DNA of 64,000 nucleotides from Bacteroidia bacterium (lineage in GTDB: Bacteria; Bacteroidota; Bacteroidia; SpSt-205), in assembly GCA_026414975.1 (NCBI GenBank), contig JAOAHZ010000006.1, forward strand, positions 62,001 to 126,000, in the 5' to 3' direction. The position numbers and the translations under genes were made by a program. The first letter of the stretch is position 1. The number at the start of each line of letters is the position of its first letter. Below the pieces are notes generated by a model. The model was not told the DNA's origin. It saw nothing but the letters and a program-made list of their open reading frames with translations, and did not search any database. Positions 8,049 to 41,105 of the stretch are shown piece after piece.

Positions 8049-8810
8049 ATGGAAGTGACTATCGGCGTCGGACTTGGGCTTCTGGCGGGACTTCTTAGTG
8101 GCCTCGTAGGTATAGGAGGAGGCACACTTATTATTCCTCTACTGGTTTTAGGGTTTGGATACAGCCAACATGAGGCGCAAGGCACAGCCCTGATGGCCTT
8201 TGCTTTTCCTGTGTTCATCATGGCGGCCTTGACCTACTATCGCCATAAACGGGTACGGGTGCGACTGGCTCTTATCATGGGGTTAGCCTTGGCCATTACG
8301 AGTTATCTTGTAGCCTTGTGGGTGCAAGATATAAGTAGTCAATCGTTGAAGCGGATTTTCGCTGTGTTTCTTATAGCGATGAGCTTATATGTCTTTGGAA
8401 AGTCGACTCGTCCGATTCAAGCTCAGTCGGCTGCAGCTTCCAGTCAACGTTCAGAAATAGGTGTAGGGCTTCTAATAGGGGGTCTTACGGGCGCAATCAA
8501 GGGTCTCACGGGGCTCGGGGGTGGGGTGATAATGGTGCCTCTCCTTGTCTTGTTGGCTAAGTTGGATCAGCACACGGCACAGGGGACCAGTCTATTGACG
8601 ATGACCTTACCCGTCGCCTTTACAGCAGCGATCCCTTATTGGCAACATGGACATATTCGCTGGATGCTGGTACTTGGCCTTGTGATAGGCGTTCTCATAG
8701 GTAGCTTTTTCTCTTCTAAGGTGGCTCAAAGGCTGACAGGCCGCCTTTTAGCTCAGATATTTGCTATAGTCATTGGCAGTATGGGAGTTGTCATGTTGGT
8801 GCGGGGATGA
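8049..8810 (+). CDS. TauE/SafE-family sulfite or organosulfonate exporter
   Basis: 253 residues with about eight membrane segments arranged as two homologous halves, each opening with a glycine-rich helix (GLLAGLLSGLVGIGGGTLIIPLL and IGGLTGAIKGLTGLGGGVIMVP). Both have HxAQGT in the following loop (HEAQGTALM and HTAQGTSLL). This is the TauE/SafE (DUF81) pattern. Exported anion not determined; members move sulfite, sulfonates or sulfur intermediates. Monocistronic. Confidence 0.9.
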   Translation: MEVTIGVGLGLLAGLLSGLVGIGGGTLIIPLLVLGFGYSQHEAQGTALMAFAFPVFIMAALTYYRHKRVRVRLALIMGLALAITSYLVALWVQDISSQSLKRIFAVFLIAMSLYVFGKSTRPIQAQSAAASSQRSEIGVGLLIGGLTGAIKGLTGLGGGVIMVPLLVLLAKLDQHTAQGTSLLTMTLPVAFTAAIPYWQHGHIRWMLVLGLVIGVLIGSFFSSKVAQRLTGRLLAQIFAIVIGSMGVVMLVRG

Positions 8811-11484: not shown

Positions 11485-13044
11485 CTAAGGCGACACAGCC
11501 AATCCATAACCTACGAGAGCAAATTCTCGGATAGCCTCTATCTGAAAGGTAGGGATCTGCAGGACGTATAGCTTGGCGGGAAATCCTGCAATACCCCCTA
11601 TGTAGTGATGAGGAGGATCTGTTCCTGCTAAGTTTTCAAAGGAAAGTAAAAGCTGCCGCCTTACAGGGTCTGCGCCGATTCCTCTTGGCAGGTGACCAGT
11701 CCCATAGATATGTGTTAGGAGTCGTAAGGTATTTACATCTATCACAGCCACAGCGCCAAGTTTATCACCTTGAAGGGCGGGGGCTTGGGCTTTTAGACAG
11801 GCAACATACAGCAGCCCATCCTGATACACCATCAGTTTAGGAGCTATAGCGGTCGGTATAACCGCTATGAGACTGTCATTTGACTGACGGAAGACGCGCA
11901 CTTCATTAGAGGCATCGCAGCTCACGAAATAATATTGTCCCGAAGGCTCTGATACGATCTGATAAGGTCCCCAACGATTATCTACGCGAGGTATCAAACC
12001 AGGAGCTAACGGTATCTGCTCAAAGTCTATAAATCGCTGGCGGTCGGAGCTGATCTCTATCTTCGCAAGGTAATTGCCTGCATTCGCTGTTACATAAGCG
12101 TAGCGGAAATCAGGTGTAATCCACAATCCATGAGGCCGAGCGATAATCTGTCCGCCCGGGTCTTGGAGCACATCCAAAACCTGCATAGATAAGGCATCAA
12201 TCAGGGTGAGCTTCACAGGGGATACATCGGTGAAATGGGTGATGATGGCGTAGCGTCCATCTGAACTAAACTCTATGTGGGCGGGGTCAGGTCCGACTTC
12301 CACGCGGCCCACCTTCTCGTATGTATCCGTTCGGTATTTCTCTACGGCGCTGCCTGCGATGAGAGTTACATAGAAGTATTGCTTATCGGGTGAAAGCTGA
12401 ATGTAGTGAGGGCTTTCTATTTGGCCGGGTCGCACTCCGACAGGGATTTGAGCTAAGAGGTGATAAGTGTCTAAATCAAAAACAGCCACTACATCGCTTC
12501 CCGCAGCGCAAATGAAGACTTTGCGCCGATGGGAACTCAACCGCTCCTCCCAAGGACGGCGTCCCCTTGCATTGAGAGCGCCTTGAGCTATCCAGCTTCG
12601 CAGGGTCTCTATTTCCTCCCGGGATAGAAGATTGGAACTATCGGGATTAGGAGGAGGACACAAGGGTTGAAAGGTAGGACCCAAGTCTGAATAGCGATTG
12701 ACTTTCCACAAAAGGTGAGACCACTGCGCATCCCCCGGAACGACCAGGGGTACTTCGCGACTGGGTCCGTAGAAAAGGCTATCCCAGCGTGCCAAGTTTA
12801 GGGTATTGGATTGAGCGGGTGTCCCTGTAGGAGTTGAACCTCCATGGTGCGAAGGGGGAGCTGGCTGGCGGGCGCTACTGTGGCAGCCAGCGCAGCGCCG
12901 AACAAGAATCCTCGCTACTGGCTCCGGATACTGGCTCTCAAGCTCTAAAGGCAGCACTTCTACTCTCGTGCAGCTCCAGAGTAGAAGGAAGGATAGGGCG
13001 GCTCTCACCGAAAGTAAATATACGACTCCTCGGCGCCAATCCAA
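11485..13044 (-). CDS. Lipoprotein with c-type heme domain and YncE-like beta-propeller
   Basis: 519 residues. The signal ends in SFLLLWSC, a lipobox. One heme site, CAGCH, lies in an N-terminal cytochrome-like domain (about residues 40-155). A seven-bladed-type propeller of YncE/40-residue repeats follows, for example KVFICAAGSDVVAVFDLDTYHLLAQIPVGVRPGQIESPHYIQLSPD. Such fusions are periplasmic or surface proteins linked to electron transfer or substrate binding; the substrate is unknown. The start is uncertain: TTG 13044, or GTG 13008 (MRAALSFLLLWSC), which gives a cleaner signal peptide. It faces away from the tRNA pair and the multiheme gene. Confidence 0.82.
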   Translation of the reverse strand: MDWRRGVVYLLSVRAALSFLLLWSCTRVEVLPLELESQYPEPVARILVRRCAGCHSSARQPAPPSHHGGSTPTGTPAQSNTLNLARWDSLFYGPSREVPLVVPGDAQWSHLLWKVNRYSDLGPTFQPLCPPPNPDSSNLLSREEIETLRSWIAQGALNARGRRPWEERLSSHRRKVFICAAGSDVVAVFDLDTYHLLAQIPVGVRPGQIESPHYIQLSPDKQYFYVTLIAGSAVEKYRTDTYEKVGRVEVGPDPAHIEFSSDGRYAIITHFTDVSPVKLTLIDALSMQVLDVLQDPGGQIIARPHGLWITPDFRYAYVTANAGNYLAKIEISSDRQRFIDFEQIPLAPGLIPRVDNRWGPYQIVSEPSGQYYFVSCDASNEVRVFRQSNDSLIAVIPTAIAPKLMVYQDGLLYVACLKAQAPALQGDKLGAVAVIDVNTLRLLTHIYGTGHLPRGIGADPVRRQLLLSFENLAGTDPPHHYIGGIAGFPAKLYVLQIPTFQIEAIREFALVGYGLAVSP

Positions 13045-13053
13045 ATCATGCCT

Positions 13054-13061
13054 TATCTTTG
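13054..13061 (+). promoter_or_regulatory. Promoter -7 element of the tRNA-Val/tRNA-Thr unit
   Basis: TATCTTTG ending 8 nt before the mature tRNA-Val 5' end. This is a useful calibration point for the element, since the RNA start is fixed by the acceptor stem. Confidence 0.75.
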
Positions 13062-13069
13062 CGGTGTGC

Positions 13070-13143
13070 GGGAACTTAGCTCAGGGGTTTAGAGCGCCTG
13101 CCTTACAAGCAGGAGGTCGGTGGTTCAAATCCACCAGTTCCCA
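13070..13143 (+). tRNA. tRNA-Val (anticodon TAC)
   Basis: Cloverleaf with acceptor stem GGGAACT pairing AGTTCCC, discriminator A13143, anticodon stem CCTGC/GCAGG around loop CTTACAA, and T-arm GGTGG/CCACC around TTCAAAT. CCA is not encoded. Confidence 0.97.
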
Positions 13144-13144
13144 C

Positions 13145-13216
13145 GCCATCTTAGCTCAGCGGTAGAGCAGCTGATTCGTAATCAGCAGGTCGGCGGTTCG
13201 AATCCGCCAGATGGCT
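13145..13216 (+). tRNA. tRNA-Thr (anticodon CGT)
   Basis: Acceptor stem GCCATCT pairs AGATGGC, discriminator T13216. Anticodon stem GCTGA/TCAGC surrounds loop TTCGTAA, and the T-loop is TTCGAAT. One base separates it from tRNA-Val, so both come from one transcript. CCA is not encoded. The next gene starts at 13218. Confidence 0.97.
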
Positions 13217-13217
13217 C

Positions 13218-14891
13218 GTGCGGTGGAGCCTGCCGCTGTTAGCTATCGGGTTGGCTCTGTATGTGTCTTGTCAGGGCGCACCTGAGTCAGTCAATTCCTC
13301 CTCTCCTTTATATGTTGGCGATGTGGTATGTCAAAGTTGTCATGCTGATATAAGTCGTGCTTATGCTTCTACATGGAAAGCGCACTCTCTTTTGCCCATC
13401 ACTCCGGACATAGAGCGCATAGAGGACTTCACTCAGCCAGCGGTATACGACCCGCACTTGAACCTGTTTTATCGGGCGGTTTGGGAGGATAATTCACTTG
13501 TTCTATACGAGTACCGTCGGCGGGGTCAAGACACTATCTACCTCCGCAAGGAACGGCTGGATTTTGTGATAGGGTCCGGGCATCAGACCCGCTCTTACCT
13601 TTTATGGCGAAATAGATTTCTCTATGAGGCTCCGCTTACTTGGTATGCGCTTCCCCGCAAATGGGACCTTTCCCCAGGTTATGCAGAAGGCCGAAACAGC
13701 CGTTTCAGTCGCGAGATACAGCCTTCCTGCTTAGCTTGCCATGCTAGTGGTTGGGTGCCCATCCCTTGGACCTATAATCGCTATGAAGCCGTGGGGGGGC
13801 CCCTTGGTTGTGAGAGCTGTCATGGTCCAGGGAGCCTACATGTAAAAAATCCATCCGACTCGGCCTACCACTGGAGCCGATGGCACCCTCTGCGTCAAAT
13901 GGACGTATGCAGCCGCTGTCATTTGGAAGGTATAGCGGTAGAAAAGCGGTCTGGATGGCGACCGGGTGATACCTTGGCCAGCTATTGGGCTATCTTCTTG
14001 CCAGAAAGGCCTGAGTTGGGGCGTTTTGGCATCGCTTCTCATGTAGAGCGTCTTCTACGCTCAGCTTGCTATCAAAAGGGAGGAGCTACTTGTAGCAGTT
14101 GTCATAATCCCCATCCTCTCAAGCCTGTGCCCTCCTACGAGGCTCGCTGCCTGAGCTGTCATACGAAAGGATGCTCAAATCCTACTCATCCTACGACCCA
14201 GTGCATAACCTGCCATATGCCCAAAGGCGAATCCAGCGATATACCTCACACACGATTTACAGACCATTATATCCGCGTGGTGCGCTCTTCAGCGCCTTCT
14301 CCCCCTGTTTTCCAGCCGCGCCTCTTATGTGCTACAGAGCCTGCACCTGATTCAGCTCTGGTAGGGGAGGCCTACTTACAATGGTACAGTGAAGAGAACC
14401 CTGCGCCTTGGGTACTCCAAGAGGCGGTGCGGATTTTGGCTCATCATGGGCTGCCCAAAGCTCAAGCGAAAGCCTCTCTTCTCAAGGGGCAGCCTCAAGC
14501 TGGACTTCTCGCCGCGGAAAAGGCCTTAGGCCAAGATACCACACTGCAACTTTTGGAGTTATACAGCTATCTCTTGGAAATGAGCGGTCAGTTTGACAAA
14601 GCACTGAAGACATGGGCTGAGCTTGCTCGGCGTGCTCCAGCCTATCCAGAAGCGCTGTTTCGCTGGGTGGTTTTGGCCTACCAGCTTAAGCGGCTTAGTG
14701 CTGGGGAGGCTTATGAGAGGTTCCAAGTTCTCCTTAGAGAACAGCCGTGGAATCCACAGTTTCATTACAACGCTGCGGTCGTAGCCGGCGCGCTGGGGCG
14801 ATTGGGAGAGGCTAAAGCCCACCTTCAAGCGGCCCTTCGGTATGATCCTGACTACAAACTCGCCGCAGAAGCCCTCAACCGCCTGCCTTAG
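13218..14891 (+). CDS. Heptaheme c-type cytochrome lipoprotein with C-terminal TPRs
   Basis: 557 residues. MRWSLPLLAIGLALYVSC is a lipoprotein signal, acylated at Cys18. Seven CxxCH heme sites begin at residues 38, 171, 198, 231, 292, 311 and 329, in an arrangement like the cytochrome c554/multiheme family. Residues from about 385 to the end form TPR helices (ALKTWAELARRAPAYPEALFRWVVLA and FHYNAAVVAGALGRLGEAKAHLQAAL). Likely an electron carrier or redox enzyme facing the periplasm or cell surface; the redox partner is unknown. The GTG start is one base after the tRNA-Thr discriminator, and the signal peptide leaves no good alternative start. Confidence 0.88.
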   Translation: MRWSLPLLAIGLALYVSCQGAPESVNSSSPLYVGDVVCQSCHADISRAYASTWKAHSLLPITPDIERIEDFTQPAVYDPHLNLFYRAVWEDNSLVLYEYRRRGQDTIYLRKERLDFVIGSGHQTRSYLLWRNRFLYEAPLTWYALPRKWDLSPGYAEGRNSRFSREIQPSCLACHASGWVPIPWTYNRYEAVGGPLGCESCHGPGSLHVKNPSDSAYHWSRWHPLRQMDVCSRCHLEGIAVEKRSGWRPGDTLASYWAIFLPERPELGRFGIASHVERLLRSACYQKGGATCSSCHNPHPLKPVPSYEARCLSCHTKGCSNPTHPTTQCITCHMPKGESSDIPHTRFTDHYIRVVRSSAPSPPVFQPRLLCATEPAPDSALVGEAYLQWYSEENPAPWVLQEAVRILAHHGLPKAQAKASLLKGQPQAGLLAAEKALGQDTTLQLLELYSYLLEMSGQFDKALKTWAELARRAPAYPEALFRWVVLAYQLKRLSAGEAYERFQVLLREQPWNPQFHYNAAVVAGALGRLGEAKAHLQAALRYDPDYKLAAEALNRLP

Positions 14892-14899
14892 AAATTCCT

Positions 14900-14907
14900 T
14901 ACCTTCG
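14900..14907 (+). promoter_or_regulatory. Promoter -7 element of lpd
   Basis: TACCTTCG ending 4 nt before GTG 14912, just after the cytochrome stop codon. Confidence 0.6.
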
Positions 14908-37362: not shown

Positions 37363-38411
37363 ACGCCTGAAGGCAAGTCTCCTATACTGAACTCACCGAC
37401 ATACCTTCCGTCTAAGCTCCAGACTGAATACATCATCTCGGGCGATTTATCCTGAAGCTCACTCTGAAGGGAAGTAGCAAAGCGTGTATTCCACTGGTAG
37501 AAATGATACCTCAAAAACTCCTCTACATCCTTCATGTAGGTGGGGTTGACTGATTGCTGAGTGCCGTAAGGGACATGACCAGCTCCTCTCCACGTGAAAA
37601 GAGCATGATACAAGCCGCGAGCTGCAGCCACTGAGTCTATGTTGTAGCCTCCTTCAGCCGGTAGAAGGATAATAGGCAGAGAACCGCTTCTATAGGGTAC
37701 TGTAACATCTCCTGTTCCATGCATGGCTATGACCGCCGAGACTTTATCCGGCTGAATCCAGCTTGTCTTTAGCATACCTCCCGATAGAGAGAATACGCCT
37801 GCGAATCGGGAGCTGTATCCGGGGTTACCCGAGTTGCCCTCAATACCACCCTGAGTAGAGAGATAGCTTATGTCGGCTTGGGGAACTTGAGCCAGCTCGG
37901 CTTCCGAAGTCAAATAAGCGGCATGGAGCGCCGTAAAAGCGCCCGCAGAAGACCCCCCCACATAGATGCGATTAGTATCTATGCCATAAGGATTACCTTC
38001 TTCGGTGAAGCTGTGTTTAAGATATCGGATGAATGCTTTAAGGTCGTGCATGGCTCGGACGCTAGCTTTTATCCACTCTGTGGCTGTGGGCTGAGTCAGG
38101 CCTATTCGGTAGTCTATAGTAGCTGCCACATAGCCTCGTTTAGCGAAGTAGCGTGCTATATGGGTGACGTCAGCATCATTCCGAGAACCAGAGATGTAGG
38201 CCCCCCCAAAAAGAATAACAATCACGGGCCGGTTCGTAACAGTATCGGCTTCAGGGATATAAAAGTTGGCCCTTAGTGTCTGGAGGCTACCTAATACGCT
38301 TACAGCTTCTCCATAAGTAGCTGTCTCTAATCTCCAATTGAATAGGCTGTCCCAGTAGCGCCCCGACTGAGCCCATAGGAGGCTGATTAGCAAGCCAAGT
38401 CTTACTCGCAC
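37311..38411 (-). CDS. Secreted carboxylesterase-like alpha/beta hydrolase
   Basis: 366 residues. Signal MRVRLGLLISLLWAQ. Catalytic parts: oxyanion region VILFGGAYISGSR (HGG replaced by FGG), nucleophile GGSSAGAF, acid in HGTGDVTVPY and His in GAGHVPYGT. The end (SVWSLDGRYVGEFSIGDLPSGVWVLRQRTGTFRRVYRP) resembles the last strands of a type A sorting domain, so type IX export is possible. GTG 38411 is selected by TATATTTG 4 nt upstream; the longer frame to 38447 is not real. Confidence 0.82.
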   Translation of the reverse strand: MRVRLGLLISLLWAQSGRYWDSLFNWRLETATYGEAVSVLGSLQTLRANFYIPEADTVTNRPVIVILFGGAYISGSRNDADVTHIARYFAKRGYVAATIDYRIGLTQPTATEWIKASVRAMHDLKAFIRYLKHSFTEEGNPYGIDTNRIYVGGSSAGAFTALHAAYLTSEAELAQVPQADISYLSTQGGIEGNSGNPGYSSRFAGVFSLSGGMLKTSWIQPDKVSAVIAMHGTGDVTVPYRSGSLPIILLPAEGGYNIDSVAAARGLYHALFTWRGAGHVPYGTQQSVNPTYMKDVEEFLRYHFYQWNTRFATSLQSELQDKSPEMMYSVWSLDGRYVGEFSIGDLPSGVWVLRQRTGTFRRVYRP

Positions 38412-39833: not shown

Positions 39834-39996
39834 GCAGAGGAGATTTAGTTAGACTCCATAGACGGAACACATTAGCCTTTGGCCTATTCGGGGCTTACCT
39901 TTGACTGGTGCTGTGAGGGGGAGGGTTAAGAGGGAATAGCTGGCATTTCGTCTCTGATCTAAGGAAGCGGGAAAAGTTGTATATTTGGGTTGCTTC
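39834..39996. other. Intergenic region between the ScpA-like gene and tmRNA
   Basis: 163 bp. It contains two plus-strand promoter matches: TACCTTTG at 39896-39903 and TATATTTG at 39980-39987. The first is followed after 4 nt by a GTG that runs straight into a stop, so it more likely serves as a second tmRNA promoter or a small RNA start than a gene. Nothing else is evident. Confidence 0.5.
39980..39987 (+). promoter_or_regulatory. Promoter -7 element of tmRNA
   Basis: TATATTTG ending 9 nt before the mature tmRNA 5' end at 39997. Confidence 0.75.
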
Positions 39997-40342
39997 GGGG
40001 GTGACAGGATTTGACAGCTAAGGGAAGGTGGCAGGTGCATGCGAGGTTCGCTGTCCTCCTCTCAAAAGGGCAGCCGGACAAGAAGTGCCGAAACTTCTTA
40101 CGCACTCGCTGCCTAATTAAGGCAGGGCGGAGGCGGGGAGGCCCCGCCTGAGGCTGAACCGTCTCTGAAGGATATATCAGGCTAAGGGTGAGTGAGAGCC
40201 CCGGCACTCACCGACTCGCAGGGGTGGGGGAGGGCTCGCTATCTGCCTCTGGATAGCCCCTCCGACGGCCGTACAGAGGCTAAGCATGTAGGACCGACAC
40301 CGGACCTTAGACTGGACGCGGGTTCGATTCCCGCCACCTCCA
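39997..40342 (+). ncRNA. ssrA: Transfer-messenger RNA
   Basis: 346 nt. Rescues stalled ribosomes and tags their products. The 5' end GGGGGTG pairs with CACCTCC at 40335-40341 to form the tRNA-like acceptor stem, discriminator A40342; the T-arm loop is TTCGATT. The tag frame is 40087-40116: resume codon GCC, peptide AETSYALAA, then TAA. The ALAA end is the standard ClpXP/ClpAP recognition end. Internal GC-rich inverted segments fit the pseudoknots. CCA is not encoded. The DppC-like permease begins one base after its 3' end. Confidence 0.95.
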
Positions 40343-40343
40343 C

Positions 40344-41105
40344 TTGAGGTACGTGGTATGGGGGGGATTGCTGATCGGGGTGGGCGCAGGCTACTTTTTT
40401 CCAGTGGAAACCGATTGTATGCTCTGCTCTCCTTCATGGAGTGGGCCATGGTTAGGTACCGACTCGCTTGGACGAGACATTTTGATCCGTCTATGGAGAG
40501 GCCTTGCACTGAGCATAGTTGTAGGCTTTAGCTCCGCTGGGCTTAGCGTGGGGTTAGGTACGGCATGGGGAATCCTCTTGGGGAGCCGGGGCGGATGGGT
40601 AGATCGGCTCTTCTCCTCCTTCCTTCAATCGGTATGGGTCGTACCTGCTTTGCTTTGGGCGACCCTCCTGGCATTCGTCGGTGGAAGAGGCTTTTGGACT
40701 TTGCTCATAGCTATAACCTTAAGCACTTGGACTGAAACAGCCCGACTTATTCGGCTGGAGGCACGCCGGATTTGGCAAATGCCCTTTATGGAAGCAGGGC
40801 GTGCCATAGGGTTTCCTTTTACTTATCTAATCGTACGCCATATGCTTCCCATGCTGTTGCCGCTCTTGAGAGTGCAGTTTTTGCAGGTGTTTGCTACGGC
40901 TGTGCTTATAGAAGCGGGGTTAGGCTTCGTCGGATTAAGCTTAGGTCCTCCTCACAGCAGCTTGGGGAGTTTGCTTTTTGAGTCCATAAACTGGCTAACC
41001 CATCCTCAAGGACAGATTCAAGCGATTGTGTCAGGCCTGCTTTTAGGGGGAATGATTTTTGCCGTATATTCGCACACAGGTTATGGGCGCCGCCTTGTCG
41101 GATAG
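40344..41105 (+). CDS. DppC/OppC-like ABC transporter permease
   Basis: 253 residues, about six membrane helices. The start PWLGTDSLGRDILIRLWRGLALSI is the typical DppC opening. The EAA-type loop is EAGRAIGFPFTYLIVRHMLPMLLPLL. The end EAGLGFVGLSLGPPHSSLGSLLFES is also family-typical. It would pair with a DppB and an ATPase such as the one at 34682. TTG 40344 is one base after the tmRNA end and gives MRYVVWGG with a basic N-terminus; GTG 40353 is the alternative. No separate promoter is visible, suggesting co-transcription with tmRNA. Confidence 0.86.
   Translation: MRYVVWGGLLIGVGAGYFFPVETDCMLCSPSWSGPWLGTDSLGRDILIRLWRGLALSIVVGFSSAGLSVGLGTAWGILLGSRGGWVDRLFSSFLQSVWVVPALLWATLLAFVGGRGFWTLLIAITLSTWTETARLIRLEARRIWQMPFMEAGRAIGFPFTYLIVRHMLPMLLPLLRVQFLQVFATAVLIEAGLGFVGLSLGPPHSSLGSLLFESINWLTHPQGQIQAIVSGLLLGGMIFAVYSHTGYGRRLVG
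41065..41072 (+). promoter_or_regulatory. Promoter -7 element of the SpoIIE-type phosphatase gene
   Basis: TATATTCG inside the 3' end of the permease gene, 10 nt before ATG 41083. Confidence 0.55.

Follow-up and report, generated by a model that had tools for sequence, protein, structure and literature searches.

Protein genes directly behind tRNAs and tmRNA suggest tRNA punctuation in an apparently leaderless Bacteroidota lineage

In a Bacteroidota lineage whose transcripts appear to be mostly leaderless, 3′ processing of tRNAs and of tmRNA probably creates the 5′ ends of some mRNAs, in the manner of "tRNA punctuation". An extended form of this reading, in which such processing generates mRNA 5′ ends quite generally in a predominantly leaderless lineage and about a quarter of the tRNA genes border mRNAs, is one that we favor with rather less assurance. 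Both build on junctions, promoter positions, conservation and processing enzymes that were read directly from the genomes. Subscription papers mostly fell outside the literature that we searched, in which we found no description of bacterial mRNAs with a 5′ end derived from tRNA 3′ processing. The window, that is, the whole stretch of 64,000 nucleotides analyzed here, comes from a Bacteroidia bacterium and contains the junction of tRNA-Thr with a cytochrome gene as well as that of tmRNA with a permease gene.

The junction of tRNA-Thr and the cytochrome gene

The cytochrome locus comprises the following features:

13054-13061, + strand: predicted sigma-A −7 box TATCTTTG, presumed promoter of the entire tRNA-Val/tRNA-Thr/cytochrome unit
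13070-13143, + strand: tRNA-Val(UAC), with C74 at 13144 (Rfam RF00005, 75.1 bits; ARAGORN 13070-13144)
13145-13216, + strand: tRNA-Thr(CGU), with discriminator U13216 and C74 at 13217 (Rfam 72.6 bits; ARAGORN 13145-13217)
13218-14891, + strand: cytochrome c, putative lipoprotein, with seven CXXCH motifs and a C-terminal TPR, 557 aa, GTG start (Pfam Cytochrome_C554, TPR)
14900-14907, + strand: near-consensus −7 box TACCTTCG, 4 nt 5′ of GTG 14912 (TAnnTTYG scan)

The acceptor pairing GCCATCT/AGATGGC places the discriminator of tRNA-Thr at T13216, in agreement with the end given by Rfam, and CCA is not encoded. This confirms the claim of an earlier note on this DNA that the cytochrome gene begins one base after the tRNA, since C13217 is the sole base between the discriminator and GTG 13218. 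The cytochrome frame is closed upstream by a TAA stop codon at 13179-13181, and not a single ATG, GTG or TTG occurs from there to GTG 13218, which is therefore the earliest possible start; a start further upstream is thus ruled out. The earlier note had supported this start codon with a perfect lipoprotein signal. While the start itself is confirmed by relatives, the signal is good rather than perfect: the lipobox LYVS-C (LYLS-C or YFS-C in relatives) fits [LVI][ASTVI][GAS]C at position −1, but position −3 is a tyrosine in most of the proteins.

We compared ten further genomes of the same genus, nine of which have the cytochrome, resulting in ten carriers together with the genome under study. 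The gap between tRNA-Thr and the cytochrome gene is exactly 1 nt, a C, in all ten carriers, with protein identities of 60-73%. The start codon is GTG in nine of them (own genome included), while G007 has an ATG in the same position, and it is followed in every carrier by a signal of the type MR..hydrophobic..SC. The sister genus (G011) reads CTT-GTG, a gap of 3 nt. The comparison of tRNA-mRNA spacing in relatives, which the earlier note had set as a test, thus found the adjacency retained in relatives within the family, against the refuting outcome that the note had named. The spacer between tRNA-Val and tRNA-Thr varies from 1 to 6 nt among relatives, and a TAnnTTTG-type box lies 5′ of the tRNA unit in those relatives whose upstream DNA was examined.

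Within 13000-13230, TATCTTTG is the only match to the promoter consensus TAnnTTYG. It lies 8 nt 5′ of tRNA-Val, which is the most frequent box-to-tRNA distance among the tRNAs of this genome. From the start of tRNA-Val to the cytochrome GTG, the consensus scan, which covers the TAnnTTYG type, yielded no match. A promoter within the tRNA genes that serves the cytochrome was consequently rejected as a candidate, and the absence of a promoter between tRNA-Thr and the cytochrome gene, as stated before, is in line with the position of the sole box ahead of tRNA-Val. We propose that tRNA-Val, tRNA-Thr and the cytochrome gene would form a single transcription unit starting from this box. The next gene, which is dihydrolipoamide dehydrogenase-like according to its sequence, seems to have a leaderless promoter of its own, as suggested by TACCTTCG.

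Further tRNA-gene pairs and the tmRNA

We located all tRNAs in the 2.2-Mb genome and in that of a complete relative (G005) and measured the distance to the downstream ORFs. In the genome under study, an ORF begins 1-4 nt past the discriminator at 12 of the 45 tRNAs (binomial p ~1e-5, with conservation not yet counted). Together with the preservation of the cytochrome junction in all ten carriers, this frequency of starts no more than 4 nt from an RNA end excludes adjacency by chance. Eleven of the 12 pairs are also present in G005:

tRNA-Thr(CGU)/cytochrome, tRNA-Leu(UAG)/trigger factor, tRNA-Val(CAC)/Dxr, tRNA-Gln/PRPP synthetase
tRNA-Arg(UCG)/L25, tRNA-Ser(UGA)/FBPase, tRNA-Trp/SecE, tRNA-Met/OsmC
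tRNA-His/DUF2480, tRNA-Phe/PhoD-like protein, tRNA-Leu(UAA)/small ORF

When the downstream ORF encodes 100 aa or more, the gaps fall into a class of 1-4 nt, one case of 7-8 nt (tRNA-Asp, LigA) and then gaps of at least 16 nt. Starts were picked from candidate ORF starts, and orthology and family N-termini concur for several of them; the starts of Dxr, L25 and FBPase, for example, agree with the N-termini of their families. An artefact of choosing the longest ORF was rejected, because orthologous starts coincide across genomes despite codon differences.

The gaps shrink with closer kinship. Between tRNA-Leu(UAG) and the trigger factor gene, the distance within the genus is 1 nt in seven genomes (own genome included), 3 nt in two and 10 nt in one; outside the genus, it is 1 nt in the sister genus, 2 nt in a relative of the same order (G012), 6-81 nt in class relatives that retain the pair, and 101 nt in the outgroup G047. 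Likewise, tRNA-Trp and secE are separated by 2 nt in the genus, 4 nt in G012 and 20 nt in G047, and no tRNA of G047 has an ORF within 12 nt. The 10-nt gap between tRNA-Leu(UAG) and the trigger factor gene in G008 (L239) holds AGGAGG before the ATG; initiation on a leader with a Shine-Dalgarno sequence may thus work in the genus too.

The linked genes, which include those for trigger factor, Dxr, PRPP synthetase, SecE, L25, FBPase and OsmC, share no common theme. The earlier note had proposed that the cytochrome would be coupled to the output of the tRNA, and one could accordingly imagine that the gene was placed behind tRNA-Val and tRNA-Thr so that its expression tracks tRNA output or growth rate. 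The linkage between tRNA and cytochrome indeed holds across the genus and extends to its sister. However, the sister genus lacks tRNA-Val at this locus, no tRNA occurs in flanks of ~1.5 kb around cytochrome homologues from beyond the family, G012 carries a different gene behind the same tRNA-Thr, and unrelated genes show the same arrangement. A dedicated regulation of this kind is therefore very unlikely in our view. The junction does not by itself argue for a special coupling, as the arrangement recurs throughout the genome, at the tmRNA and at 12 or more tRNA-gene pairs, and the ordinary promoters of the lineage look leaderless as well; any gene behind a tRNA promoter would be co-expressed with the tRNA.

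In all 12 units, TAnnTTTG is located 4-10 nt before the own tRNA or the preceding tRNA, and it is absent from the tRNA start to the start codon. The small genome and the missing theme among the linked genes would also fit mere compaction, in which the loss of intergenic DNA left a functionless junction, most of the trailer is broken down and a weak, unseen promoter drives the gene. We judge this unlikely, given that not one of the 12 units has a promoter box inside and that usually essential genes (SecE, Dxr, L25) would depend on such a weak promoter, whereas several genes located farther behind a tRNA own a TAnnTTTG box beside their start. Compaction may explain the origin of the arrangement, but leaderless expression would still be required.

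The same arrangement as at the cytochrome locus was found for the tmRNA in the window:

39980-39987, + strand: −7 box TATATTTG before the tmRNA (from the sequence)
39997-40342, + strand: tmRNA, with discriminator A40342 followed by C 40343 (ARAGORN; Rfam RF00023, 111 bits; acceptor pairing)
40344-41105, + strand: ABC transporter permease (BPD_transp_1), 253 aa, TTG start 1 nt past the tmRNA discriminator

The gap between tmRNA and permease gene is 1-4 nt in 10 of the 11 genomes of the genus, with TTG, GTG or ATG as start codon, and among class relatives no gene start lies right behind the tmRNA. In G003 (L282), the permease frame is open up to the RNA end and has ATC at the usual start position, which is possibly an AUC start at the 5′ terminus or else a sequence error.

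Leaderless promoter layout

Promoter statistics were obtained from 464 kb of the genome under study with 371 long ORFs. TAnnTTTG ends 0-9 nt 5′ of a candidate start in 100 of these ORFs, in 46 of them at exactly 4 nt. The outgroup G047 has the motif in this range at 19 of 308 ORFs with a flat spread (Fisher p 5e-13), and scrambled-motif controls gave 2-10 ORFs. Placement by chance is excluded, because the peak is missing from both the scrambled motifs and the outgroup. The start codons of the set with a nearby TAnnTTTG are 70 ATG, 26 GTG and 2 TTG, and motifs resembling Shine-Dalgarno sequences are not enriched (0/98 and 10/273 compared to 17/273 in the control region). Within the window, 16 of 54 ORFs have TAnnTTYG 3-8 nt before their start, for example those at 8049, 14912, 19393 and 28337, and further those at 38411, 44708 and 56414.

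In Flavobacterium psychrophilum, the box covers positions −12 to −5 relative to the transcription start site (PMC9723704). A gap of 4 nt between box and start codon would thus let transcription begin right at the start codon; the start sites of the present lineage are extrapolated from Flavobacterium, another member of the phylum. On this basis, the layout would represent leaderless promoters across the genome, and most transcripts of the genus with a recognizable promoter appear to be leaderless. This would be unusual for Bacteroidota: leaderless genes account for 3.7% in Bacteroides thetaiotaomicron (PMC7366714) and 5.5% in F. psychrophilum (PMC9723704), and they were found in one of 37 Bacteroidetes/Chlorobi genomes (PMC3160421). 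A 16S rRNA from which the anti-Shine-Dalgarno sequence could be read was not found, either with the covariance model in G000 and G005 or with a 3′-end pattern in G000, G005, G012 and G047.

Maturation of the tRNA 3′ end and related systems

Since leaderless translation would be common in the genus, a gene behind a tRNA or the tmRNA could use the processing site of that RNA instead of a promoter and a leader. In the proposed mechanism, RNase Z would cut endonucleolytically behind either U73 or the encoded C74, thereby releasing tRNA-Thr. The remaining cytochrome mRNA would carry a 5′-monophosphate, begin with (C)GUG and be translated by ribosomes as a leaderless message. The RNase Z cut site, the mRNA 5′ ends and leaderless translation are predicted here from sequence. 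At a junction of 1 nt, trimming by a 3′ exonuclease would destroy the mRNA, and only an endonucleolytic cut at this position would be expected to yield both tRNA and mRNA from one transcript. The genome encodes an RNase Z homologue with a full-length match to TIGR02651 (261.6 bits, below the NCBIfam cut-off of 293) and the HLHADH motif, whose best PDB match is Bacillus subtilis RNase Z (1y44, E 3e-41). A CCA-adding enzyme (PolyA_pol/CCA) is encoded as well.

Alternatively, the ribosome might enter the uncleaved tRNA-mRNA precursor internally, so that processing would not be needed for the mRNA. Translation in Bacteroidota proceeds largely without Shine-Dalgarno sequences (PMC10783764), and an upstream motif would hence not be required for such an entry. 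On the other hand, tRNA-Thr ties up the bases 5′ of GTG 13218 in its acceptor and T arms, RNase Z is encoded and tRNA function demands cleavage. Moreover, the gaps within the genus stay at 1-4 nt even though larger, apparently harmless gaps exist outside it. We therefore regard translation of the uncleaved precursor as quite unlikely compared to translation of an mRNA released by RNase Z.

The arrangement with processing by RNase Z resembles the tRNA punctuation of animal mitochondria, in which tRNAs abut genes as well and cuts at tRNA ends would free nearly leaderless mRNAs. In contrast to mitochondria, it is found on a bacterial chromosome of 2.2 Mb that has many promoters, and punctuation would be confined to genes that immediately follow a tRNA or the tmRNA; the enzymes acting would be the bacterial RNase Z and the CCA-adding enzyme, and cleavage is a prediction in the present case. 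Similarities also exist to the leaderless mRNAs of Mycobacterium, Deinococcus-Thermus and Streptomyces, which begin with an ATG or GTG, lack a Shine-Dalgarno sequence and have a promoter box abutting the start. Their 5′ ends arise mainly from transcription initiation, whereas tRNA 3′ processing would generate them here. Cotranscription of tRNA and protein genes from a common promoter occurs in other bacteria too. In E. coli, tRNAs precede tufB, and the pair of tRNA-Trp and secE is found in the present lineage as well. The gaps in such cotranscribed pairs usually leave room for a leader, as do the 20 nt between tRNA-Trp and secE in G047, in contrast to the 1-4 nt observed here. Similarly, tRNA-Lys of Thermococcus kodakarensis is cotranscribed with a downstream protein gene, but there the tRNA sits inside the 159-nt 5′ UTR of a single gene (PMC4247193).

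Taken together with the promoter layout, punctuation of the mitochondrial kind and leaderless mRNAs would meet in one uncultured lineage of a phylum whose mRNAs are thought to be almost always leadered. The lineage would provide a natural test, at many loci, of ribosome initiation on processed mRNAs with a 5′-monophosphate. It also bears on the interplay of tRNA maturation and mRNA stability and on the origin of an organelle-like arrangement in a bacterial chromosome. For gene finders applied to this clade, a start would be expected ~4 nt past TAnnTTTG or 1-4 nt past a tRNA.

The earlier note had RNase Z maturation leave an mRNA that begins with C-GTG. The enzyme homologue and the exact junction support this part of the claim, but the first base of the message may differ. 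C74 is encoded in 39 of 45 tRNAs of the genome under study and in 42 of 44, 28 of 28 and 32 of 33 tRNAs of three others, whereas N75 and N76 are random in the tRNA genes of these four Bacteroidia genomes. With C74 near-universal and the two following positions random, C74 looks like a property of the tRNA rather than of an mRNA leader. The RNase Z cut may thus follow C74, in which case the mRNA would open directly on its start codon. The encoded C (13144, 13217, 40343 and others) may mark the real RNase Z cut or represent a partial CCA.
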